A stretch of 54,712 bases of DNA from Rhodospirillales bacterium (GTDB lineage Bacteria > Pseudomonadota > Alphaproteobacteria > Acetobacterales > Acetobacteraceae), in the NCBI GenBank assembly GCA_025352565.1, contig JANXTF010000017.1, forward strand, positions 1-54,712. The letters run 5' to 3'. The notes under the pieces are model-generated. The model saw only the letters and a list, made by a program, of their open reading frames with translations. It was not told the origin of the DNA and did not search any database. Made by a program: the position numbers and the translations under genes. Shown here piece after piece: positions 1,098 to 12,057 of the stretch (positions are counted from its first letter, which is position 1; every line of letters starts with the position of its first letter).

Positions 1098-2549
1098 ATG
1101 GCAAATCGACAAGGGTGGATGGTCCTCCCGATACTTGCGCTTCTTGCCACTCCGCTTGGCGCGGCCACGCCCCCCAGCGCGACAGCCGCAGCGCCGATCG
1201 CGATCACGCTGCCGGAGGCTGTGTTCATCGGGCTGCGTGACAACCGCACGATCAAGAGCGACTATTTGCAACGCATCGCCGACAAATTCGCGCTGCGAGT
1301 GGCGGAGGACAGGTTCACGCCCCGGGTCTATCTTGGCGGCACCGTGGGCGTGTCCCGGCTGTCCGGCCTGCGGTCGAACCAGGCCTCGCTCAACCCAACC
1401 GTGACGCTGGCGACGCCGACGGGCGCCAGCTTCACCTTCGGCTGGCTCAACCAGCAGACCAATCCGCACGGGTCGTTAGGGACCGGCAGTTCGGGGCTGA
1501 CGATGCAGTTCGTCCAGCCGCTGCTGGCCGGCGGCGGGATCGATTACGCAACCGCACCGGTGCGGTTGGCACGGATTTCGGAGACCAGCAACCAGCTCCG
1601 GCTGAAGCAGACGGTGATCGACACCATTACGCAGATCGTGCTGGCGTATCGCGCGTCGATCCAGGCGCACCAGCAATTGCGCATTGTCCGCGATGGTTTG
1701 AAGCGTGCGCGCGATTTGCTGGAGGTGAACCGGGCGCTGCTCGCGGCCGGGCGCATCGCCCAGGTGGAACTGGTGCAGTCCGACGTGAACATCGCCCAGC
1801 AGGAACTGCAGGTGTCGAGCGCCGAGAACGCCGACGACGCGGCACGGCTGGCGTTGCTGGTGCTGCTGGCGCTCGACCCGCGATCGAAGGTCATCGCCAT
1901 CGACACGCTGAGTTCCACGCCGGTCAAGGTCGATCAGGAGCAGGCGCTGCGGGTCGCCTACAATACCCAACCCGCCTATCTAAGCCGGCGTCTGGCCATC
2001 GAGAGCGGGCAGATCAACCTCACGGTTGCGCGCAATCAGCGGCTCTGGGACGTGTCGGCGGTGGGCAGCGCCGGCCAGCAGGCCAACGGGCGAGATGTAT
2101 TCCAGACGATCCCGGCGCTGCGCAGCGCCAAGACGAATTATAGCCTCGGGCTGCAACTCAACATCCCGATCTATGACCCCACCCGCGAGCAGGGCGAGGT
2201 GAACGCGACGGTCTCCTTGCGCCAAACCGAGCTTGCCGCGGCACAGGCGACCGATCAGGTGCGCCAGCAGGTGACGGACGCTGTGCGCAACATCGAGTCG
2301 CAGCGCCGGCAGCTTGAACTCGCCAAGCGGGCCCGCGAACTCGCGGCGAACCAGGCGCAGATCGAACTGCTGAAGCTACAGGTGGGCCGTTCGAGCAACT
2401 TCCAGGTTGTGTCGTTCCAGAACGAGCTGCAGCAGGCCGAAAACACGGAACTGGTCGGGATTATCGCTTATCAGAACGCGCTCACGGCGATGGACCAGGT
2501 TCTGGGCACCACGCTCGACACGTGGCGCATCGGCCTCAACGACCAATGA
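1098..2549 (+). CDS. TolC-family outer-membrane efflux protein
   Basis: This is a 483-residue outer-membrane channel of the TolC/OEP family, the exit duct of a tripartite exporter. The ATG at 1098 was preferred to the upstream start at 1047 because it gives a clean Sec signal peptide (about residues 1-23, ending near P-L-G-A-A). The mature part starts with I-T-L-P-E-A-V-F-I-G-L and is followed by the long, Gln/Ala/Leu-rich alpha-helical repeats typical of OEP proteins. There are two such halves; the second contains A-N-Q-A-Q-I-E-L-L-K-L-Q-V-G-R-S-S-N-F-Q near the C-terminus. The stop overlaps the ATG of the next gene (ATGA), so the channel is translationally coupled to the GAF-PAS-adaptor fusion. 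Which substrate it exports is not visible. Confidence 0.9.
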   Translation: MANRQGWMVLPILALLATPLGAATPPSATAAAPIAITLPEAVFIGLRDNRTIKSDYLQRIADKFALRVAEDRFTPRVYLGGTVGVSRLSGLRSNQASLNPTVTLATPTGASFTFGWLNQQTNPHGSLGTGSSGLTMQFVQPLLAGGGIDYATAPVRLARISETSNQLRLKQTVIDTITQIVLAYRASIQAHQQLRIVRDGLKRARDLLEVNRALLAAGRIAQVELVQSDVNIAQQELQVSSAENADDAARLALLVLLALDPRSKVIAIDTLSSTPVKVDQEQALRVAYNTQPAYLSRRLAIESGQINLTVARNQRLWDVSAVGSAGQQANGRDVFQTIPALRSAKTNYSLGLQLNIPIYDPTREQGEVNATVSLRQTELAAAQATDQVRQQVTDAVRNIESQRRQLELAKRARELAANQAQIELLKLQVGRSSNFQVVSFQNELQQAENTELVGIIAYQNALTAMDQVLGTTLDTWRIGLNDQ

Positions 2550-4831
2550 ACGATCTGTCGTTTTCCACGAACGAGGAAGGCCGCCTTTCGGCGCTCGCGC
2601 GCTACTCCATTCTCGACACCGCGCCGGAACGGGCCTTCGATGACCTGACCGACCTCGCGGCGCGCGTATGTGGCTGCACGATGGCCTATGTCAGCTTCAT
2701 CGATGCCGGTCGGCAATGGCTGAAATCCGCCTATGGCTTTGCCGCCGAGGGGATGAACTGCGACCGCGAAGCCGCCTTCTGCTCCGACGCGATCCGCGAA
2801 ACCGATTTGCTGATCGTTCCGGATTTGGCCAAACACCCGCGCTACGCGAGCTACGCGACGGTGACTGGCCCGCCATTCCTGCGGTTCTATGCAGGTGCGC
2901 CGCTGCTCACGGCCGACGGCTTCGCGCTCGGCACGCTGTGCGTGGTGGACACGGTGCCGCGCGACATCGACGAGTCCAAGCGCACCTCGCTGCGGCAAAT
3001 CGCGCGGCAGGTGGTGACGGAACTGGAATTGCGGAGACGGCTGATCGAGCTGGATGAAACGCTGGGACAACTGACCAACTCGGAAGCCGAGTTGCGCGCG
3101 GCGCATGAGCGGCTCGGCCTGGATTATCGCGGCGTGCTCGACAACATGGCTGACGGCGTGCTCTCGGTTGACGACGATGGCCGCATCGAGATGGCGAACC
3201 CGATGGCGGCGGTCATCCTGGGCGTCCCGCGCGAGGCGTTGGTTGGATCGCGGCTGGGCGAGGCCTTGCCTGGCGGCAGCGATTTCACTGCCGCCATCCT
3301 CGCGCCATTAAGCCATCAAGGTATCGAGGCTCCGCGCGTGGTGGCGTTCCACCGTGGCGACGACACGCGCCATATTTCGGTCGCCAGCACCGCGTATTGC
3401 ATCCAGTTCGGCTTGGAGCGTGGCCATACCGCGATCATCGCCGCGTTCAGCGACGTAACAGAGATGGAACGGCTGCGTGCCACCGAGATCGACCAGAACG
3501 CCAGGCTCCGGCGCGCTTATACCGACATGGAGCAATCCACCGCCAAGGCGGCGGTGTTCACCAAACGGGTACAGGTGGCGCGCACTGCGGCGACCGGGTT
3601 CGTCTTGCTCGCCTTCATCGCGGTGGCCGCCTATCTTTGGTTTCCCGCGAGCGCGTTGAAGGCCACGGCATCGGCGCGGACGCCGACCGACGCGAGCCGC
3701 GTGACCGTGGTGACGCAAGCGGTGTCGTCGCGCATCTCGGTCGTCGGATCGATCGACGCGGGGTCGATCGTGACGGTGGTCGGGCCGTTCGACGGATCGG
3801 TGAGCGAGAAGCTGTTCCGCTACGGCGGCAACGTGACGCGGGACGAGTCGATCCTGGTGCTGGACAGCGCCGAGCTTCTGGTGCGGCTCCGCGACGCGCG
3901 CGGGGCATTGATCCGCGCGAAGCAGAAAACCGCGGAATTGCGGAGCTGGACGACCGGCATCGAGGTGTCCCGCGCGCGGCGCAGCGTGAATGCGGCGGAA
4001 CTGGATCTCGGTGATTTGCGGAGCAAGGCGCGCCAGACCAAGACCCTGCTTGATCGCGGGATCGTGGCCGCCGAGGAATATCGTGGGCAGTTGCAACAAA
4101 TCCGCAGCCTGGAACTGCAACTGGAGACGGCGAAACAGGACCTGACCACGACGATCGCGCGGGGTTCGGTGGAGAACGTGGCGCTTGGGAGCTACGAACT
4201 CGCCAACGCCGACGCCAAGGTGAGCGAGTTGGAGCGGGACCTTTCGCATACCGTGGTGCGGGCCCCGGTGTCAGGTGTGGTGTTGCAGCCACCGGAGGCT
4301 CTCGGGGGCAAACGTGCCGAGACCATCGAGGTGGGGTCGCGCGTCAGCCGGGGACAGACCGTGGTGGCGATCGGCGATCTGGAGACGTTCTCGGTGAAGG
4401 CGAACGTGGACGAGATCGACGTGAGCAAGATCCGCGTCGGCCAATCCGTGAAGGTTACCGGCGACGCGTTCGATGGGATGGTCCTCGATGCCGAGGTGAC
4501 CAGCGTGGCGGGCCAGGCCAGCACGGACCCGTCGCAGCGCACCGGCCTGCCGGCGTTTCCGATCACGGTGCGCATCCGCGCGATCACGCCGGAGCAGCGA
4601 TCCCACATCTATGTCGGCATGTCGGCAAGCCTGTCGATCATTGCTTACGAGAACGCCGAAGCCATCGTGATCCCGGTGGCCGCGCTGCATGACGACGACG
4701 GCGTGCGGACGGTGCGGGTGGACGGGCCGGCGGGCGCGACCAGTGTGCCGGTGACCGTCGGCATGAGCACCCCCGACGGCATCGAGATTCGGCGTGGGCT
4801 GCGGGCGGGAGACGTCGTGCTGGTGCGGTAA
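2546..4831 (+). CDS. GAF-PAS-TM-MacA/HlyD-type periplasmic adaptor fusion
   Basis: This is a 761-residue protein with an unusual domain order. Residues about 10-165 form a GAF domain (L-D-T-A-P-E-R-A-F-D-D-L early, then G-A-P-L-L-T-A-D-G-F-A-L-G-T-L-C-V-V-D, the classic GAF core). Residues 165-190 are a linker helix. Residues about 188-310 form a PAS domain (L-D-N-M-A-D-G-V-L-S-V-D-D-D-G-R-I, then A-N). Residues 311-345 are a charged helix, and 347-367 a single hydrophobic membrane helix. From about 395 to the end it is a membrane-fusion protein: first lipoyl half near 411-445, coiled-coil hairpin near 445-570, second lipoyl half V-V-R-A-P-V-S-G-V-V-L near 570, and beta-barrel domains after 610. 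Topology fits: sensors in the cytoplasm, adaptor in the periplasm. It is coupled to the upstream TolC-type gene (ATGA) and its stop faces the permease stop at 4837. No kinase, cyclase or EAL domain is present. The function as a sensory adaptor is inferred. Confidence 0.88.
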   Translation: MNDLSFSTNEEGRLSALARYSILDTAPERAFDDLTDLAARVCGCTMAYVSFIDAGRQWLKSAYGFAAEGMNCDREAAFCSDAIRETDLLIVPDLAKHPRYASYATVTGPPFLRFYAGAPLLTADGFALGTLCVVDTVPRDIDESKRTSLRQIARQVVTELELRRRLIELDETLGQLTNSEAELRAAHERLGLDYRGVLDNMADGVLSVDDDGRIEMANPMAAVILGVPREALVGSRLGEALPGGSDFTAAILAPLSHQGIEAPRVVAFHRGDDTRHISVASTAYCIQFGLERGHTAIIAAFSDVTEMERLRATEIDQNARLRRAYTDMEQSTAKAAVFTKRVQVARTAATGFVLLAFIAVAAYLWFPASALKATASARTPTDASRVTVVTQAVSSRISVVGSIDAGSIVTVVGPFDGSVSEKLFRYGGNVTRDESILVLDSAELLVRLRDARGALIRAKQKTAELRSWTTGIEVSRARRSVNAAELDLGDLRSKARQTKTLLDRGIVAAEEYRGQLQQIRSLELQLETAKQDLTTTIARGSVENVALGSYELANADAKVSELERDLSHTVVRAPVSGVVLQPPEALGGKRAETIEVGSRVSRGQTVVAIGDLETFSVKANVDEIDVSKIRVGQSVKVTGDAFDGMVLDAEVTSVAGQASTDPSQRTGLPAFPITVRIRAITPEQRSHIYVGMSASLSIIAYENAEAIVIPVAALHDDDGVRTVRVDGPAGATSVPVTVGMSTPDGIEIRRGLRAGDVVLVR

Positions 4832-4836
4832 GGCGG

Positions 4837-6009
4837 CTACTCCGCCCGCAACGCCGCGATCGGGTTCAGGCGCGATGCCATCACGGCCGGGTAGAAGCCG
4901 AAGAACACGCATACCGCGAACGAGACGCCCGCCCCCAACGGAGCAGCGGTGGCCGAAAGGATGAAGTGCCAATCGGAGAACCGCGCGAACACGTAGGACG
5001 CGGCGATGCCCAGCACGATGCCGATGACGCTGCCGATGGCCGCCAGGATCACGGCCTCGCAAAGGAACAATATCTGGATGTCGCGGCGGCGCGCCCCGAT
5101 GGCCAGCCGCAGACCGATTTCGCGGTGGCGTTCGGCGACCGACACCAGCATGATGTTCATGACGCCCACGCCCCCAAGCACAAGCGAGATGGCACCGATT
5201 GCACCGAGCAGCAGGGCGAACAGCTCCATCTGATTGGCCATGCTGGCGATCAACTGCTGGGCGCTTTGGGCCTGCAGCGTGGCATCCTTGAGCTTCGGCC
5301 GGAAATACACGCCCGCCGCCGCGATCGCGGCATCGGGGTCCGCGCCTGGGGCGAGGCGTGCGATGACGTTCGCGATCGTGCCATTGGTCAGGATGCGGCG
5401 TGCGTTGGATAGCGACACGAACATGGTGCTGTTGAGGTCGATCGGCATCATCGGGCTCTGCAGCGTCGGTTCGAGGATGCCGATGACGGTGAAGATGTAG
5501 CGGCCCACACGCAACGGCGAGCCCACGCGAACATTGCCAAACGGGCCGGAAAGCTGGCTCGCCAAACCGGCGCCTAGGACGCAGAACAGCTCGAACTTAT
5601 CGACCTCGCTGATGAAGCGGCCGCCGCGCATACCGACCCGCGCAACCTGGGCGAAACTGCCGGTCACACCGACCTGCGGGGCGCTTTCCGCGTCGCCCTG
5701 GAAGCTCACGCTGCCGCCGCCCTGCACGAAGGGCGCGACCTCGGCGATGGCCGGCACCGCGCGCGGCAACTCCAAGATGTCGGCGAGCTGCATCCCGGCC
5801 ATGCCGGTCGGGCTGTTCACGCGCAGGGTGAGGATGTCGGTGCCCATCTGCTCGAACTGCTTGACCGTCTCGTTGCGGGCGATGGCACCGACATTGAGCA
5901 TGGCGATGACGGCGGCGGCACCGATCACGATGCCGATCAGGGCAAGGCCGGAGCGCTGGCGCGACGTGAGAAGATTGCCCGCGGCCTCGATGAGAATTTG
6001 GCGCAGCAT
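4837..6009 (-). CDS. MacB-type ABC transporter permease
   Basis: This is a 390-residue inner-membrane permease of the MacB/FtsX class. A first membrane helix lies at about residues 20-42. It is followed by a periplasmic MacB_PCD-type domain (about 45-250), then three C-terminal helices within residues 260-388. The region N-I-M-L-V-S-V-A-E-R-H-R-E-I-G-L-R-L-A-I-G-A-R-R-R-D-type sequence after residue 285 is the hallmark of MacB permeases. Unlike E. coli MacB, the ATPase is a separate protein encoded immediately upstream, three bases away. Its tail-to-tail neighbour on the plus strand is the adaptor fusion (5-base gap), which supports one tripartite machine of ATPase, permease, adaptor and TolC-type channel. 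The substrate is unknown. Confidence 0.9.
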   Translation of the reverse strand: MLRQILIEAAGNLLTSRQRSGLALIGIVIGAAAVIAMLNVGAIARNETVKQFEQMGTDILTLRVNSPTGMAGMQLADILELPRAVPAIAEVAPFVQGGGSVSFQGDAESAPQVGVTGSFAQVARVGMRGGRFISEVDKFELFCVLGAGLASQLSGPFGNVRVGSPLRVGRYIFTVIGILEPTLQSPMMPIDLNSTMFVSLSNARRILTNGTIANVIARLAPGADPDAAIAAAGVYFRPKLKDATLQAQSAQQLIASMANQMELFALLLGAIGAISLVLGGVGVMNIMLVSVAERHREIGLRLAIGARRRDIQILFLCEAVILAAIGSVIGIVLGIAASYVFARFSDWHFILSATAAPLGAGVSFAVCVFFGFYPAVMASRLNPIAALRAE

Positions 6010-6012
6010 GGC

Positions 6013-6708
6013 TCAGTGCGCCAGTTCGAGCATTGGCTCCACGCTTTCGAAGATGCGGCCATGGCGGAGCACCACGCGGCGCGGACATTGCGCCGCGACC
6101 TTCGGATCATGCGTGATGATAAGGACCAGCACGCCAAGTTCGCGGTTCATCTCGGTGAACAGGTCCATGATGCCTTGCGCCACCGCCGGGTCAAGCGCCC
6201 CGGTGGGCTCGTCGGCCAGCACGACGGCAGGGGCGCCCACCAGGGCACGCGCGATGGCCACGCGCTGACGCTGGCCGCCGGAAAGTTCGCTGGGTTTGTG
6301 GTCGCAGCGATCGCCGAGCCCCACGCGTTCGAGGATCGCAAGCGCCCTTCGCCGCGCCTCGCCATCGGACGTTCCGCGATACAACAATGGAAGTGCCACG
6401 TTGCGCCACGCGGACAGCCGGGGCAGCAGGAAGTAGGATTGAAAGACGAAGCCGACCAACTGGTTGCGCAGCGCGCTCAGCCGATCCGCTGTCGCGGACA
6501 ACACGTCCTGGCCATTGATGCGATATTCGCCGCTGGTCGGCTTGTCGAGCAGGCCCACGATGTTCATGAATGTGGTCTTGCCCGACCCGGAACCGCCCAT
6601 GATCGAGACCACCTCGCCAGCCGAAAAGGTAATGGAGAGATCGCTCAATATCGCCGTCTCGATCGGGCCGATCCGGTAGGTCTTGGAGATATGCCGCAGT
6701 TCCAGCAT
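6013..6708 (-). CDS. ABC transporter ATP-binding protein, MacB/LolD class
   Basis: This is a 231-residue cytoplasmic ATPase that would energise the adjacent MacB-type permease. Walker A G-G-S-G-S-G-K-T lies at residues 38-45, the signature L-S-G-G-Q at 142-146, and Walker B V-V-L-A-D-E at 162-167, followed by the P-T-G-A-L-D D-loop. The H-loop histidine is in I-I-T-H-D-P. The ATG at 6708 was chosen because M-L-E-L-R-H-I-S-K-T-Y is the standard start of this class; the reading frame extends further upstream without protein-like sequence. It is encoded 26 bases after the secreted-protein gene and three bases before the permease gene, giving one transcription unit. Confidence 0.92.
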   Translation of the reverse strand: MLELRHISKTYRIGPIETAILSDLSITFSAGEVVSIMGGSGSGKTTFMNIVGLLDKPTSGEYRINGQDVLSATADRLSALRNQLVGFVFQSYFLLPRLSAWRNVALPLLYRGTSDGEARRRALAILERVGLGDRCDHKPSELSGGQRQRVAIARALVGAPAVVLADEPTGALDPAVAQGIMDLFTEMNRELGVLVLIITHDPKVAAQCPRRVVLRHGRIFESVEPMLELAH

Positions 6709-6734
6709 GGCGCTACGGCATCGTCTCCACGTCG

Positions 6735-7178
6735 CTACTTGCTGAACGGACACTCCCGAACCAGCAGATCGACCACGTTCCAGGCCTCGACCGGAGTGAC
6801 GTTGCTCTTGCCCGGAACTTCCAGCTTGGCGATGATGACGTCCACCGGCTGGTAGCTGGTCAAGCGAATGGTCTGCCTGTCGCTGAACCAGCGGCCGCCG
6901 TTGGTGTTGGAGAGGTTGGCGGTGTTCACGCGCAGGATGACGGTGCCGCTGGACTGGTTCTGCAGCTGGGCGTGGTACGAGAACACGGTGTTGGTCTGGC
7001 CGACCATCGGGACGGCATAGGCCTGATAGACGACGAGCTTGCTCTGGGTTGCCGGGGGCACCGGCGGGAAAGGCAGCCGCGTGACGCAGAACTCGCGTTG
7101 CTGGGCGGCGGCGGGCGCGGCGGTAATGGAAGCCACCGCCGCGAGCGCCGCGACGGCCAAAATCATGTTGCGGATCAT
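6735..7178 (-). CDS. Secreted protein of unknown function, first gene of the ABC operon
   Basis: This is a 147-residue protein with a clear Sec signal peptide: M-I-R-N-M, a hydrophobic Ala/Val stretch, and a likely cut after A-P-A-A-A near residue 25. The mature part is about 120 residues, rich in Val, Thr, Asn and Gln, and looks like an all-beta domain. It has two cysteines, Cys31 and Cys143, at opposite ends, suggesting a disulfide that closes the domain. The ATG at 7178 has a GGGAGAG ribosome binding site. I do not recognise the family. Being first in the operon of an exporter, it may be a periplasmic partner, a substrate or a substrate-binding accessory. That is inference from position only. 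Confidence 0.75.
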   Translation of the reverse strand: MIRNMILAVAALAAVASITAAPAAAQQREFCVTRLPFPPVPPATQSKLVVYQAYAVPMVGQTNTVFSYHAQLQNQSSGTVILRVNTANLSNTNGGRWFSDRQTIRLTSYQPVDVIIAKLEVPGKSNVTPVEAWNVVDLLVRECPFSK

Positions 7179-7225
7179 CTGGTGTCTCTCCCGGGGCCGA
7201 TCGGCTGCCCCGACCAACATGGAAA

Positions 7226-7255
7226 AGTATAATCACTCGGGCGTAAAAATTACAA
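7226..7255 (-). promoter_or_regulatory. Candidate promoter of the secreted protein-ATPase-permease operon
   Basis: On the minus strand TTGTAA (7255-7250) and TATACT (7231-7226) are separated by 18 bases. This is a good match to a housekeeping sigma promoter, in an AT-rich patch that stands out from the surrounding GC-rich DNA. It lies about 48 bases before the ATG at 7178. No operator was identified. Confidence 0.5.
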
Positions 7256-7371
7256 TGACGGCATTAACCGCCGTTCCAGGAGCCACACGCCGGATGAGGC
7301 TGGCGAGTGCCGTCGGTTTCACCACCGTAACCTGCGGCGGGAACAACCACCCGTGACGGAGCGGAAAAGCG

Positions 7372-8286
7372 TCACGCCGACAGCGCGGCACCCGGTTGTG
7401 CGCGGCGGGATTCCAGGCGGAAGGTTTCGGCGATGTGGCTGGCCAGAATGTCGGTAAGCGGCTGGCGCGGCTGGCGCGCTTTCAGCAACTGGATGCCTGC
7501 TTCGGGCAAGGCGGGCAGGCCTTCGTCGGCGCGCAATATCCGCAGGCCGTCGGGCAGCCAGGTGACCGGGGAGACGGTGACGGCGAGCCCCGCGAGAACG
7601 GGCGCATAGGTGCCGGCCAACGAGGCCGAGTTGTATTTGACGTGGTAGGACCGATGGGCCTTCTCCAGCGCCTTCAACGTGACGGCGCGCCAGGTGCAGT
7701 CGTTGCTCTCCATCGCCAGCGCCAGGGGCAGCGGATCGAGCCGGTGGGGTGCGTGGCGTTCCGAGGTGATCCACAGCAACGGGCCGCGCCATAAATCGGT
7801 CGCCGGCCAGCGTTTCGGGCCGTGACCTTCCGAACAGAGCGTGAGGTCGAGGTCACCGGCCTTCAGGCGCTCGACCACCTCGTTCGAAGGCGCCACCACC
7901 ACCTCGACCTCGATCGCCGGCTGCGCGTCGGCGAAGCGGCGCAGGACATGGGGCAGATAGCGCAGCGCGTAGTCGTCGGGCGTGCCGAGACGCACGATGC
8001 CGTGGGCGGTGGGGGCGTGGAACGCGGTCCATATCTCGTCGTTCAGCGCCAGCAGCTCCCGCGAGCGTTCCAGCAGGTAGCTGCCATGGGGCGTGAGATG
8101 CACAGCACCGCCCTTGCCGCGCTGGAGGATTTTCTGGCCGAGGATGGCCTCGAGTCGCTGAACCTGCATGGAGACGGCCGATTGCGTGCGGCCGACGCGC
8201 TCGGCAGCGCGGGTAAAGCTGCCATCCTCCGCGATATAGGAGAAGGCCCGGAGCAGATCGGGGTCGATTCCAGCCGGAATTTTCAT
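7372..8286 (-). CDS. LysR-family transcriptional regulator
   Basis: This is a 304-residue LysR-type regulator. The winged helix-turn-helix is at about residues 8-66 (L-L-R-A-F-S-Y-I-A-E-D-G-S-F-T-R-A-A-E-R-V-G-type sequence, then S-A-V-S-M-Q-V-Q-R-L-E). A LysR_substrate effector domain follows from about residue 90. The gene is divergent from the DUF1127 gene at 8388, with 101 bases between the starts, the usual arrangement for autoregulation and control of the neighbour. It is separated from the export operon by 193 bases and points towards it, so it could also be read through into that operon. The effector cannot be told from sequence. Confidence 0.92.
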   Translation of the reverse strand: MKIPAGIDPDLLRAFSYIAEDGSFTRAAERVGRTQSAVSMQVQRLEAILGQKILQRGKGGAVHLTPHGSYLLERSRELLALNDEIWTAFHAPTAHGIVRLGTPDDYALRYLPHVLRRFADAQPAIEVEVVVAPSNEVVERLKAGDLDLTLCSEGHGPKRWPATDLWRGPLLWITSERHAPHRLDPLPLALAMESNDCTWRAVTLKALEKAHRSYHVKYNSASLAGTYAPVLAGLAVTVSPVTWLPDGLRILRADEGLPALPEAGIQLLKARQPRQPLTDILASHIAETFRLESRRAQPGAALSA

Positions 8287-8640: not shown

Positions 8641-11600
8641 TCAGAAATCCTCCACCTTTTCGACTCCTGGCAAAACCCGCATCGCCTGCGCCAGACGCGG
8701 CGTGACGTTGAACCGCCCCGGCAGCGTGATCTCCACCTCCTGCTCGGAATCCAGATGCGGCATCAGCACCACCTCGCCGCGCCCCTTGCCTTCTCGCGTC
8801 AGCAGCGCACGGATGTGGGGCAACGCCTCGGTGCGCTCCAACCAGACGCGCATCCCGGCCCCCGCCTGCATCGCCGCCTCGTCGAGCGGCACCACGTCGC
8901 TCGCGGTCACCCGTAGCGCCTCGCCCTCCATGCGGATATCGGCGGTCACCAGCACCGCGTTGCCCACCGCCAGCGCCGCGCGCGCGCGCGACAGCACCTC
9001 GCTGAAGATCGTCACCTCGTAGCTGCCGCCGGCATCGGACAGCCGCACCCAGGCCATGCGGCTGCCCTTCTGCGTCAGGCGCTCCTTGGACGCGATCACC
9101 GATCCCGCCAGCTTCACGCGTGACGCGCCGGCCTGTGCCGTCGCCTCCATGCGCGTGCTCGAAACCACCCCGAGCCGCCGCAGCACCTGCGCGTAGGCAT
9201 CGAGCGGATGCGCGGTCAGATGGAACCCGATCGCCTCGGCCTCGAAGCCCAAGCGGTCCAGCTCCATCCAGTCCGGCACGTTCGGCAGCCGCAACTCCTC
9301 GCGGCGACCGGGTGCGCCGAACAGCCCGATCTGTCCGCTGCCCTTTTCCTCGGCCGAAGCCTGCGCCCGGCGCAGCACCGTTTCCGCGCCGGCAAACACC
9401 TTTGCGCGGTTACGGTCCAGCGTGTCGAAGGCACCGGCGCGCGCAAGGTTCTCGATCTGCATCTTGTTGATCTGCCGCGGATCGACGCGGGCCGCGATAT
9501 CGGAGATATCGATGAACGGCGTGTCGCCCCGCGCCGCCTCCAGCGCCAGCATCGCCGCGCGCCCGACCTTCTTCACCGCCGCGAGCGCGTAGCGGATCGC
9601 GAGTTTTCCCTCGTGCGGTTCCAGCGTGAAATCGGCGCCAGACCGATTGATGTCGGGCGGCAGCATCACGATCCCCATGCGCCCGGCCTCCTGCCGCAGC
9701 GAGGCCAGACGATCGGTGTTGTTCATCGCCAGACTCATGCAGGCCGCCACGAACGCAACCGGATGGTTCGCCTTCATCCACGCGGTTTGATACGCGACCA
9801 GGGCGTAGGCGGCGGCATGGGATTTGTTGAAGCCGTAATCCGCGAACTTGGCCATGAGGTCGAACACCTCCTCGGCCTTGGCCGCCGGGATGCCGCGCGC
9901 CGTCGCGCCGTCCACGAAGGTTTTCCGCTGCGCGTCCATCTCGGCACGGATCTTCTTGCCCATCGCCCGGCGCAAAAGATCGGCGCTGCCCAGGCTGTAC
10001 CCGCCCATCTTCTGGGCGATCTGCATGACCTGCTCCTGATAGACCATGACCCCGTAGGTCTCGCCCAGGATCTCCATCAGTTCGGGATGCGGCGGCTCCC
10101 ATTTCTCGCCGTGCTTGCGCTGGCAATAGGCGGGGATGTTGGCCATCGGGCCGGGACGGTACAGCGCGACACCCGCGATCAGGTCCTCGAAGCGGTTGGG
10201 ACGCATCTGCCGCAGCACGTCGCGCATGCCCTGGCCTTCGAACTGGAACACGCCGCCCGCGTCTCCTTTCGCCAGCATCTCGTAGGTGGCCGCGTCGTCC
10301 AGCTTCAGAGTGTCGAGATCTACGCCGATTTCCTGCGTCTTCAGATACCGCACCGCACGCTGCAAGATCGTGAGCGTGGTCAGCCCCAGGAAATCGAACT
10401 TCACCAAGCCGGCCTGCTCGACATATTTCATCGAGTACTGCGTGACGAGGAAGTCCGATTTCGGATCGCGGTAGATCGGCACCAGCTCCGTCAGCGTCCG
10501 GTCGCCGATCACCACGCCGGCGGCATGCGTGCTGGCGTGGCGGTACAGCCCTTCCAGCTGCAACGCGATCTCCATCAGCCGACGCAGGCCCTCGTCGTCC
10601 GTGCGCATCTGCTGCAACTTCGGCTCACCGTCGATCGCCTCCTTCAGCGTCACGGGCTTGGCCGGATTGTTCGGGATCAGTTCGGCAACGCGGTTGACCT
10701 GGCCATAAGGCAAACCCAGCACGCGCCCCACGTCGCGCACGGCGGCGCGGGCCTGGAGCTTGCCGAATGTAATGATCTGCGCCACCCGGTCGCTGCCGTA
10801 CTCGCGGCGCACATAGGCGATCACCTCGTCGCGGCGGTCCTGGCAGAAATCGATGTCGAAATCGGGCATCGACACGCGCTCGGGGTTCAGGAACCGCTCG
10901 AACAGCAGCCCGAAGCGGATCGGATCGAGGTCGGTGATGGTCAGCGCCCATGCGGCCACCGATCCGGCACCCGAGCCGCGCCCCGGCCCGACCGGAATGC
11001 TCTGCGCCTTCGCCCACTGGATGAAATCGGCCACGATCAGGAAGTAGCCCGGAAAACCCATCTTCCCGATCACCGACAATTCGAACGCCAGCCGCTCGCC
11101 GTATTGCGCGCGGGTGGCGGTATCCGCGCCGATGGTGTCCATGCGCCGCGCGAGGCCCTCGGCCGCCAAGGCGCCGAGCGTCTCCTCCTCGGTGGTGCCC
11201 GGCCGCACCTTCGGACACATCGGCAGCAGCGGCTTGCGGGTTTCGGCCATCACCGCGCAGCGTTGCGCGATCGCAATGGTATTGTCGCAGGCTTCCGGCA
11301 GGTCCGCGAACAGCGCGCGCATGACGGCGGCAGGCTTGAACCAGTGCTCGGGCGTCACGCGGCGCCGCTCGGCTTCGGCCATGGTGCGGCCTTCGGCGAT
11401 GCAGAGCAGCGCGTCATGCGCCTCGTGCATCTCGCGCCTGGAGAAGAAGCACTCATTGGTCGCCACCAGCGGCGCCCGCGCGGCATCGGCCAGCAGGATC
11501 AGGCCGGGCTCGATCGTTTGTTCAATGGCGACGCCGTGCCGGTGCAATTCCACCATGACGCGATCAGGGAACGCTTCGGCGATGCGCGCCAGCAACGCCT

Positions 11601-12057
11601 CGGCGGCGGCTTTCTGCCCTTCCGCCAACAGCCGCCCGAGTGGCCCCAGCGTGCCGCCCGTCAGCAGTATCAGCCCCTCCGCATGCGCAAACAGCTTGTC
11701 GGGCAGCATCTGGGGCTTGGTGCCGGGATCGCTTTCCATGAACCCCAGCGACGACAGCCGTTGGAGATTGGCGAACCCGGCCGAATTTTGCGCCAACAAT
11801 ACCACCGGGTCGGGCGGGAGCATGGGGTTGTCTGCCCGCGTCAGCGCGATCTGGCACCCGATGATCGGCTGCACGCCCTTCGCGGCGCAGGCCTGGCTGA
11901 ACTCTAGGGCGCCGAACATGTTGGCCGTATCCGCGATCGCCACCGCCGGCATTCCGGCATCGCGTGCGAGGGAGGCGATCTTGTCGGCCTTGATAGCGCC
12001 TTCGCTCAGCGAATAGCTGGAATGGACGCGCAGATGCACGAAGTCGGCATGGGGCAT
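8641..12057 (-). CDS. dnaE: DNA polymerase III alpha subunit
   Basis: This is the replicative polymerase catalytic subunit, 1138 residues, the normal length for DnaE1. The PHP domain opens with L-R-V-H-S-S-Y-S-L-S-E-G. The polymerase core contains P-D-F-D-I-D-F at about residue 398 with the catalytic aspartates. G-P-G-R-G-S-G-A-G lies just before it, and a helix-hairpin-helix and an OB-fold (A-G-S-V-I-A-S-K-E-R) occur in the C-terminal third. The Uma2 gene ends 3 bases upstream, so the two may be cotranscribed. No inactivating change is seen. Confidence 0.97.
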   Translation of the reverse strand: MPHADFVHLRVHSSYSLSEGAIKADKIASLARDAGMPAVAIADTANMFGALEFSQACAAKGVQPIIGCQIALTRADNPMLPPDPVVLLAQNSAGFANLQRLSSLGFMESDPGTKPQMLPDKLFAHAEGLILLTGGTLGPLGRLLAEGQKAAAEALLARIAEAFPDRVMVELHRHGVAIEQTIEPGLILLADAARAPLVATNECFFSRREMHEAHDALLCIAEGRTMAEAERRRVTPEHWFKPAAVMRALFADLPEACDNTIAIAQRCAVMAETRKPLLPMCPKVRPGTTEEETLGALAAEGLARRMDTIGADTATRAQYGERLAFELSVIGKMGFPGYFLIVADFIQWAKAQSIPVGPGRGSGAGSVAAWALTITDLDPIRFGLLFERFLNPERVSMPDFDIDFCQDRRDEVIAYVRREYGSDRVAQIITFGKLQARAAVRDVGRVLGLPYGQVNRVAELIPNNPAKPVTLKEAIDGEPKLQQMRTDDEGLRRLMEIALQLEGLYRHASTHAAGVVIGDRTLTELVPIYRDPKSDFLVTQYSMKYVEQAGLVKFDFLGLTTLTILQRAVRYLKTQEIGVDLDTLKLDDAATYEMLAKGDAGGVFQFEGQGMRDVLRQMRPNRFEDLIAGVALYRPGPMANIPAYCQRKHGEKWEPPHPELMEILGETYGVMVYQEQVMQIAQKMGGYSLGSADLLRRAMGKKIRAEMDAQRKTFVDGATARGIPAAKAEEVFDLMAKFADYGFNKSHAAAYALVAYQTAWMKANHPVAFVAACMSLAMNNTDRLASLRQEAGRMGIVMLPPDINRSGADFTLEPHEGKLAIRYALAAVKKVGRAAMLALEAARGDTPFIDISDIAARVDPRQINKMQIENLARAGAFDTLDRNRAKVFAGAETVLRRAQASAEEKGSGQIGLFGAPGRREELRLPNVPDWMELDRLGFEAEAIGFHLTAHPLDAYAQVLRRLGVVSSTRMEATAQAGASRVKLAGSVIASKERLTQKGSRMAWVRLSDAGGSYEVTIFSEVLSRARAALAVGNAVLVTADIRMEGEALRVTASDVVPLDEAAMQAGAGMRVWLERTEALPHIRALLTREGKGRGEVVLMPHLDSEQEVEITLPGRFNVTPRLAQAMRVLPGVEKVEDF

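Follow-up and report, generated by a model that had tools for sequence, protein, structure and literature searches.

Studies of pump control usually look to transcription and to substrate binding. For MacA, the periplasmic adaptor of MacAB-TolC, a review describes adaptation mainly through transcriptional reprogramming (PMC13328181). Control of MacB-type pumps by a cytoplasmic part of the adaptor has already been reported (PMC5985334): loss of the cytoplasmic region or of the membrane helix of MacA impairs stimulation of the MacB ATPase, and DevB lacking its N-terminus no longer supports export; this N-terminus is proposed to control pump activity. The literature speaks of the N-terminal part of MacA in different terms, as lacking a cytoplasmic domain (PMC13328181) or as having a cytoplasmic region (PMC5985334), and the structural basis of ATPase stimulation is unclear because the MacA membrane helix is not resolved (PMC5985334). 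In type 1 secretion, removal of the cytoplasmic helix leaves HlyD unable to recruit TolC (PMC4446572). Adaptors of ATP-binding cassette (ABC) and major facilitator superfamily pumps have been credited with 'sizable cytoplasmic domains' that are poorly understood (PMC8277102), so cytoplasmic adaptor parts are not new as such. Here we describe, in a 54,712-nucleotide contig of a Rhodospirillales bacterium of the Acetobacteraceae (JANXTF010000017.1, assembly GCA_025352565.1; the whole stretch is called the window below), an adaptor gene in which GAF and PAS sensory domains precede the membrane helix of a MacA/HlyD-type protein. We read its locus as probably encoding a signal-gated, MacAB-TolC-like tripartite exporter, in which the adaptor N-terminus would have been turned into a cytoplasmic sensor. 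The fusion comprises the following features.

2546..4831, + strand: GAF-PAS-coiled coil-membrane helix-periplasmic adaptor fusion, 761 amino acids (reading frame, Pfam/NCBIfam, relatives)
2624..3022, + strand: GAF domain, residues 27-159 (Pfam GAF, E 5.8e-14, above gathering cut-off)
3122..3463, + strand: PAS domain, residues 193-306, with a DVTE motif at its end (Pfam PAS, PAS_4 and PAS_9)
3452..3568, + strand: predicted coiled-coil linker of 38 residues, beginning at D303 of DVTE and ending at R341 ahead of the membrane (3.5-residue period)
3587..3643, + strand: predicted membrane helix, residues 348-366 (hydropathy, charge count)
3701..4828, + strand: MacA/HlyD-type periplasmic adaptor, residues about 386-761 (Pfam HlyD_D23 and HlyD_3; MacA profile match)

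The frame runs open from an ATG at 2546 to a stop at 4831, encoding 761 amino acids with 0 internal stops, and its start codon overlaps the stop of the preceding TolC gene by four bases (2546-2549). The initial annotation had proposed one intact frame holding a GAF domain, a PAS domain, a linker, a single membrane helix and an adaptor, and this order is confirmed by Pfam, hydropathy and the absence of stops. The GAF domain finds its nearest solved chain in the diguanylate cyclase 4zmu (residues 10-163, E 7.1e-27), while the Pfam PAS model covers residues 193-251 (E 5.7e-9) and is extended to residue 306 by PAS_4 and PAS_9, above gathering cut-off. In the last third of the protein, HlyD_D23 (561-666, 5.8e-10) and HlyD_3 (570-688, 5.7e-12) also exceed their gathering cut-offs, and the NCBIfam periplasmic adaptor model TIGR01730 is reached with 95.3 bits for a cut-off of 94.9. 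MacA chains rank first when the adaptor family profile is compared with the PDB (9qgy, 5nik and 3fpp, best E 2e-26), and the cut-off of the NCBIfam MacA equivalog NF008606 is missed (31.7 bits vs 342). Residues 348-366 form the strongest hydrophobic stretch, preceded by four K/R within 15 residues and followed by two, and the N-terminus is predicted to be cytoplasmic. The earlier proposal of about 345 cytoplasmic residues ahead of the adaptor is thereby supported, as GAF and PAS both precede the membrane helix, and the protein departs in this respect from the 'no large cytoplasmic domain' given for MacA-type adaptors (PMC13328181). No output domain was found by Pfam in the fused proteins of the window or its relatives.

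Relatives were sought in searches totalling 1397 genomes, with repeats, from one phylum; the large samples scored only some candidates per genome, so a missing match there does not prove absence. Six of 200 genomes of the same bacterial family, scored with at most five candidates each, match the adaptor part at E <= 1e-20 (the window's genome, G005, G174, G072, G155 and G020); in the other 84 matching genomes the match is to the GAF/PAS part, outside the adaptor, two of these running into the adaptor start. Searches with the adaptor alone matched 6 of 385 genomes of the class, 10 of 398 of the phylum and 12 of 250 of the order and, in smaller groups, 2/22, 2/36, 4/43, 2/11 and 1/48; these samples overlap, and the counts take in the window's or the centre genome. 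One relative, L035, comes from a metagenome-assembled genome of Pseudolabrys, an alphaproteobacterium. Among viral contigs, 46 candidate stretches yielded no relatives, and none of 2674 matched plasmid records had a single place covering 80% of the query. L049 and L050 (from G107 and G011), where matches reached residues 418 and 391, held no adaptor open reading frame at E 1e-5 and were dropped. The set analysed comprises 35 loci, window included; adaptor matches in G791, G860 and G890 and most plasmid matches lie outside it.

Sensor content varies among these 35 adaptors. A PAS domain with a GAF region is present in seven (window, L044, L045, L085, L086, L088 and L089), five of which pass the Pfam GAF model (window, L044, L045, L088 and L089), and a PAS domain only in 15 (L035, L046, L058-L062, L084, L087 and L108-L113), and each of these 22 PAS-bearing adaptors exceeds the cut-off of a PAS model. 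Two have a GAF-type region without PAS: L094, by Pfam, and L047, which resembles the window GAF weakly (30%) and has no Pfam GAF. L107, cut by a contig end, was kept out of the sensor counts. The window fusion is 54% identical to that of L044 and 46% to that of L045 over the alignment; between window and L044 the GAF domain (67%) exceeds the adaptor (57%), a comparison by which the fused sensor is under constraint. Of the 35 loci, 32 have TolC, permease and ATPase genes all together with the adaptor, the others (L089, L107 and L113) lying at contig ends; the complete cassettes are the window, 11/11, 11/12, 7/9 and 2/2 annotated plasmid loci. Sensor and adaptor are not confined to separate genes in relatives, the fusion recurring in six other genomes, and its retention there rules out an assembly join, a frameshift or chance. 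The domain order proposed at the outset stands as a real fusion, but the GAF is not essential to it: PAS-only adaptors are the commonest kind, and 10 of 35 have no sensor. As judged from sequence, the sensor-adaptor fusion is a real and repeatedly remodelled design.

The segment joining PAS and membrane follows a single rule. Counted from the D of a D[VI][TS][EK] motif to a basic residue before the membrane helix, it measures 45 residues in 15 and 38 residues in seven of the 22 PAS-bearing adaptors, with no other length observed. Its hydrophobic residues recur with a period of 3.5 (shuffle p 0.0012 for the long class and 0.013 for the short), and the exit motif has D in 22/22, T in 20 and E in 21; the D-[VI]-[TS] exit and a heptad linker of fixed phase, 45 or 38 residues long in 22 of 22, are as expected of a PAS-coupled signalling coiled coil. 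The ERT signature described for the S-helix (PMC1592074) occurs in the central heptad of none of the 22 linkers. Linker class changes twice on the adaptor tree, and a single clade of the seven short-linker rows is rejected by an approximately unbiased (AU) test (p 0.0026), so the exact seven-residue change, one heptad, probably arose twice. In the LOV histidine kinase YF1, an output that varies with linker length in steps of seven residues marks transfer along a coiled coil (PMC6798134). Linker length and periodicity support gating of the adaptor by its sensor, a function that we infer.

The tree in question is the second of two. A first, with 37 rows, had outgroups that were too distant and long branches for L094 and L095; the second left out those four rows and has midpoint rooting only. 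In its 33 rows a clade with support 97/95 unites the PAS-bearing adaptors, L047, L048 and the truncated L107, and the PAS state changes twice and the GAF-PAS state three times. One gain of PAS and one loss in the L047/L048 branch would account for this, in a direction that, with midpoint rooting only, we infer. L094 belongs to a different class of the phylum; its adaptor, which bears a GAF, is distant (27% identity) and may represent a separate fusion event. The place of L094 is unsure because it stands outside the 33-row tree. In that locus the GAF-adaptor fusion (6011-7921) is followed by a GAF-GGDEF protein (9978-11855).

In the mechanism that we favour, six adaptors would ring the permease, as MacA does, which would hold sensor dimers near the ATPase. 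A cytoplasmic signal would alter the GAF/PAS dimer, the coiled coil would transmit this to the membrane helix as a rotation or a change of register, and the resulting adaptor conformation would favour or block assembly, ATPase stimulation and channel coupling. The cargo would be small Cys-containing proteins, delivered by Sec to the periplasm and then expelled; the candidate in the window is encoded at 6735-7178.

PAS and GAF domains often dimerise, and here they might do no more than bring adaptors together as dimers, position them or dock them on the ATPase, with nothing sensed. The conserved coiled coil would also suit pure dimerisation, and the 22 PAS domains share no Cys/His site. The 67% GAF identity between window and L044 and the variety of sensor types (PAS, GAF-PAS and GAF) speak against such an assembly platform, and the retained PAS exit motif fits a signalling exit more than a clamp. 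We regard it as unlikely, though not far-fetched.

As to what a signal-gated exporter might sense, the GAF domain holds one candidate site.

2759..2782, + strand: C72 and C79 of the GAF domain, candidate thiol pair (C72 in the five pump-fused GAFs that pass Pfam, in 0 of 24 others)

C72 and C79 are both present in all five pump-fused GAFs that pass Pfam. The comparison set is 24 further GAF relatives of the window's bacterial family, namely those matches of the 200-genome search for which loci were made; C79 is found in all 24 and C72 in none, two of them (L016 and L029) having a Cys near position 70, about two residues earlier. The five pump-fused GAFs share ancestry, so this counts as one event. 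The L086 GAF is without C72 and C79, and in L085, under the search cut-off, the motif is missing by eye. Next to the adaptor itself, an OxyR-type LysR gene abuts the fused gene, on either side, in L035 (6958-7968), L044 (8364-9326) and L046 (7820-8779); at E 1e-15, none was found in the other 32 of 35 loci, window included. OxyR (NF008361) is the best family of these three products, at 245.8-270.1 bits for a cut-off of 329. The OxyR redox pair is spaced C-X8-C; C204 and C213 are both present in L044 and L046, and C204 alone in L035. The window's genome has an OxyR-like gene elsewhere (labelled G000:C72), 47% identical to the L044 gene, and the LysR gene near the window cassette resembles LrhA, under cut-off. 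The initial annotation had envisaged a pump acting without a separate regulator; this is too strong, as an OxyR-type gene abuts the fused adaptor in three of the 35 loci.

MacAB of Salmonella has been linked to oxidative stress (PMC7403778), and the cysteine pair and the OxyR-type neighbours hint at a redox signal, as a lead only. A built-in thiol switch, in which oxidation of C72/C79 would act via the PAS domain and a register-locked coiled coil to open or assemble the adaptor, letting stored small disulfide proteins leave the periplasm with no transcription step, is in our judgement doubtful. Genes of other signalling families also lie near some cassettes: a hybrid kinase in L108, a diguanylate cyclase with GAF domains in L094 and, in L035, a hybrid kinase and a SpoIIE-type response regulator, the latter (9762-11339) combining response regulator, SpoIIE phosphatase and kinase-like ATPase domains and starting six bases past the fused adaptor.

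The remainder of the window cassette comprises the pump partners and a small gene.

1098..2549 (start uncertain, 1047-1119), + strand: TolC-family outer membrane channel (Pfam OEP, E 4.6e-35 on 1047-2549; beside the adaptor in relatives)
4837..6009, - strand: MacB-like permease (MacB_PCD and FtsX by Pfam), without an ATPase of its own
6013..6708, - strand: separate ABC ATPase, MacB/LolD-like (Pfam, NCBIfam)
6735..7178, - strand: candidate cargo or accessory protein, small, with a signal peptide predicted by a crude rule and a mature part holding two Cys; 26 bases upstream of the ATPase gene

The TolC channel, permease and ATPase named as neighbours in the initial annotation are all recovered, by the Pfam OEP, MacB_PCD plus FtsX, and ABC ATPase models, the permease and ATPase genes being convergent with the TolC and fusion genes. 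The permease has the MacB_PCD periplasmic core and the FtsX domain that mark the MacB superfamily, both above cut-off. A one-chain MacB was not seen, permease and ATPase being separate genes (NF007826, 136.5 and 242 bits vs 966), and some MacB homologues are known to have an ATPase of this separate kind (PMC5985334).

A disulfide-bonded peptide translocated by Sec is exported by MacAB-TolC, and the substrates of MacB homologues, taken from the periplasm, are described as commonly small disulfide-bonded peptides, up to the 10 kDa dispersin (PMC5985334, PMC8277102). In 33 of the 35 loci (L089 and L107 left out), 27 small secreted Cys proteins (80-210 residues, at least two Cys, a crude signal-peptide rule) are encoded no more than 3 kb from a cassette, in 165 kb of DNA outside the cassettes themselves, vs two in 133 kb farther away (two-sided binomial p 1.5e-5). 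The length and Cys limits were set after examples had been seen, and the unfiltered count, over 24 loci, is 32 near vs seven far. None was found in 157 kb of 31 control loci, which were counted whole and come partly from other bacteria; the gene caller was crude and trained on pump genes. By eye, some of the 27 are lipoprotein-like (L046) and one is enzyme-like (L111). The 6735-7178 product has a weak DUF3551 match under cut-off, and ten small proteins (nine of the 27 and L058 3834-4310) reached no Pfam cut-off. Further examples with signal peptides and Cys are encoded in L044 (1257-1661, 3987-4394), L058 (3180-3554, 3834-4310, 4348-4722), L110 (5986-6441) and L112 (8200-8616). Most have no detected relation between loci, and L110 and L112, with adaptors 76% identical, have small proteins only 27% identical. 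Small, secreted, quickly diverging and encoded next to a pump, these proteins resemble cargo, though they might have accessory roles.

Two other kinds of gene recur near the pump genes. A short lipoprotein-like protein, alike by eye, is encoded between or near them in L085 (10240-10518), L086 (9995-10285), L046 (4235-4531) and L087 (3510-3710). The second kind, found in L061 (8261-9844) and L109 (7848-9368), comes after the permease gene and shares its strand; it encodes an HTTM domain and a lumenal domain like that of vitamin K-dependent gamma-carboxylase, and its product might modify exported proteins.

The cytoplasmic part could instead recognise a substrate or its precursor and license assembly, by analogy with the small N-terminal domain of HlyD, which provides the precedent (PMC13328181, PMC8277102). 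MacB pumps, however, are described as taking their substrates from the periplasm (PMC8277102, PMC5985334), and the fused part has the folds of sensors, not the character of a tail specific to one cargo. Small secreted neighbours, present near 13 of 23 sensor loci, also accompany sensor-less sisters (4 of the 10 other loci), and we deem a cargo receptor improbable. Still less probable to us is signalling in the reverse direction, with the adaptor reporting pump state or periplasmic cargo inward and PAS/GAF passing this to a cytoplasmic partner: the signalling genes near some cassettes (L035, L108 and L094) would agree with it, but the fused protein has no output domain, and the 20 neighbourhood proteins, from some of the loci, run through Pfam, several of them adaptors, gave no signalling gene common to most loci. 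An accidental, functionless fusion or an assembly artefact would suit the patchy distribution (adaptor part in 6 of 200 same-family genomes, one of two in the genus) but is refuted by relatives, with 22 PAS-bearing adaptors following one linker rule in a clade supported at 97/95, and we consider it very improbable indeed.

Several observations weigh against the signal-gated exporter that we prefer. Both AlphaFold models of the fusion are poor (pLDDT 41 and 48), too weak for use or for fold searching, so the folds of the fusion and the limits of its hairpin rest on sequence profiles. The GAF is degenerate in L085 (no Pfam call) and L086 (20.5 bits vs a cut-off of 22.4), both of which keep PAS and linker, and it is absent from the near relative L084. 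No GAF or PAS is detected at E 0.001 in 10 of the 35 adaptors (L048, L095, L114, L090-L093 and L115-L117). These occur in the same cassette, and sensor-less L048 sits inside the sensor clade, so the sensor is not needed for transport. The PAS domain is 40% identical between window and L044, below the 57% of the adaptor, and no Cys/His column is common to more than 6 of 22 PAS domains, so that no particular cofactor is indicated. The heptad evidence amounts to two events, in a short-linker group that was named after the lengths had been seen; 10 of the 23 sensor loci have no nearby small secreted protein passing the rule; and at E 1e-50 the second genome of the window's genus gives no match (one of two genus genomes matching).

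If the signal-gated reading is true, a pump with the sensor on the same chain would be under direct control. The same cassette with a sensor, without one and with swapped sensors offers ready pairs for probing how the adaptor stimulates the ATPase, and the clustered small secreted proteins are testable cargo candidates.

GAF or PAS domains fused to a periplasmic adaptor were not found in the open-licence literature, in the portions of text available, including those of PMC8277102, PMC13328181, PMC4971617, PMC2887384, PMC9120033, PMC5069766, PMC6372562, PMC5985334 and PMC4446572; database annotations of such proteins may exist. Of the known systems, MacA of MacAB-TolC resembles the adaptor part by profile, and TolC and a MacB-type permease adjoin the fusion gene as well; the fusion differs in its roughly 345 GAF/PAS residues before the membrane helix and in the ATPase being a separate protein. 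DevB of DevBCA-TolC is likewise the adaptor of a MacB-type pump for which N-terminal control has been proposed, but the match of the fusion to its NCBIfam model is weak (40.1 bits vs 129), its cargo is a glycolipid, and the text available of PMC5985334 mentions no GAF or PAS in DevB. AatP and CexP exporters of dispersin-like proteins are MacB-type tripartite systems that export a small secreted protein; compared by description only, they differ in that no sensor fusion is mentioned in that same text (PMC5985334). HlyD has an N-terminal membrane helix and a cytoplasmic part acting in transport (PMC13328181, PMC4446572), although this part is small, binds substrate and is neither GAF nor PAS. 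Plasmid cassettes of Pantoea agglomerans and Deefgea piscis encode ATPase, permease, TolC and adaptor in a row, with adaptors of 429 and 415 amino acids and no sensor. PAS/GAF sensor kinases and diguanylate cyclases share the GAF, the PAS, the DVTE exit and the heptad linker with the fusion; they end in an enzymatic output, whereas here the predicted output is a pump adaptor across the membrane.

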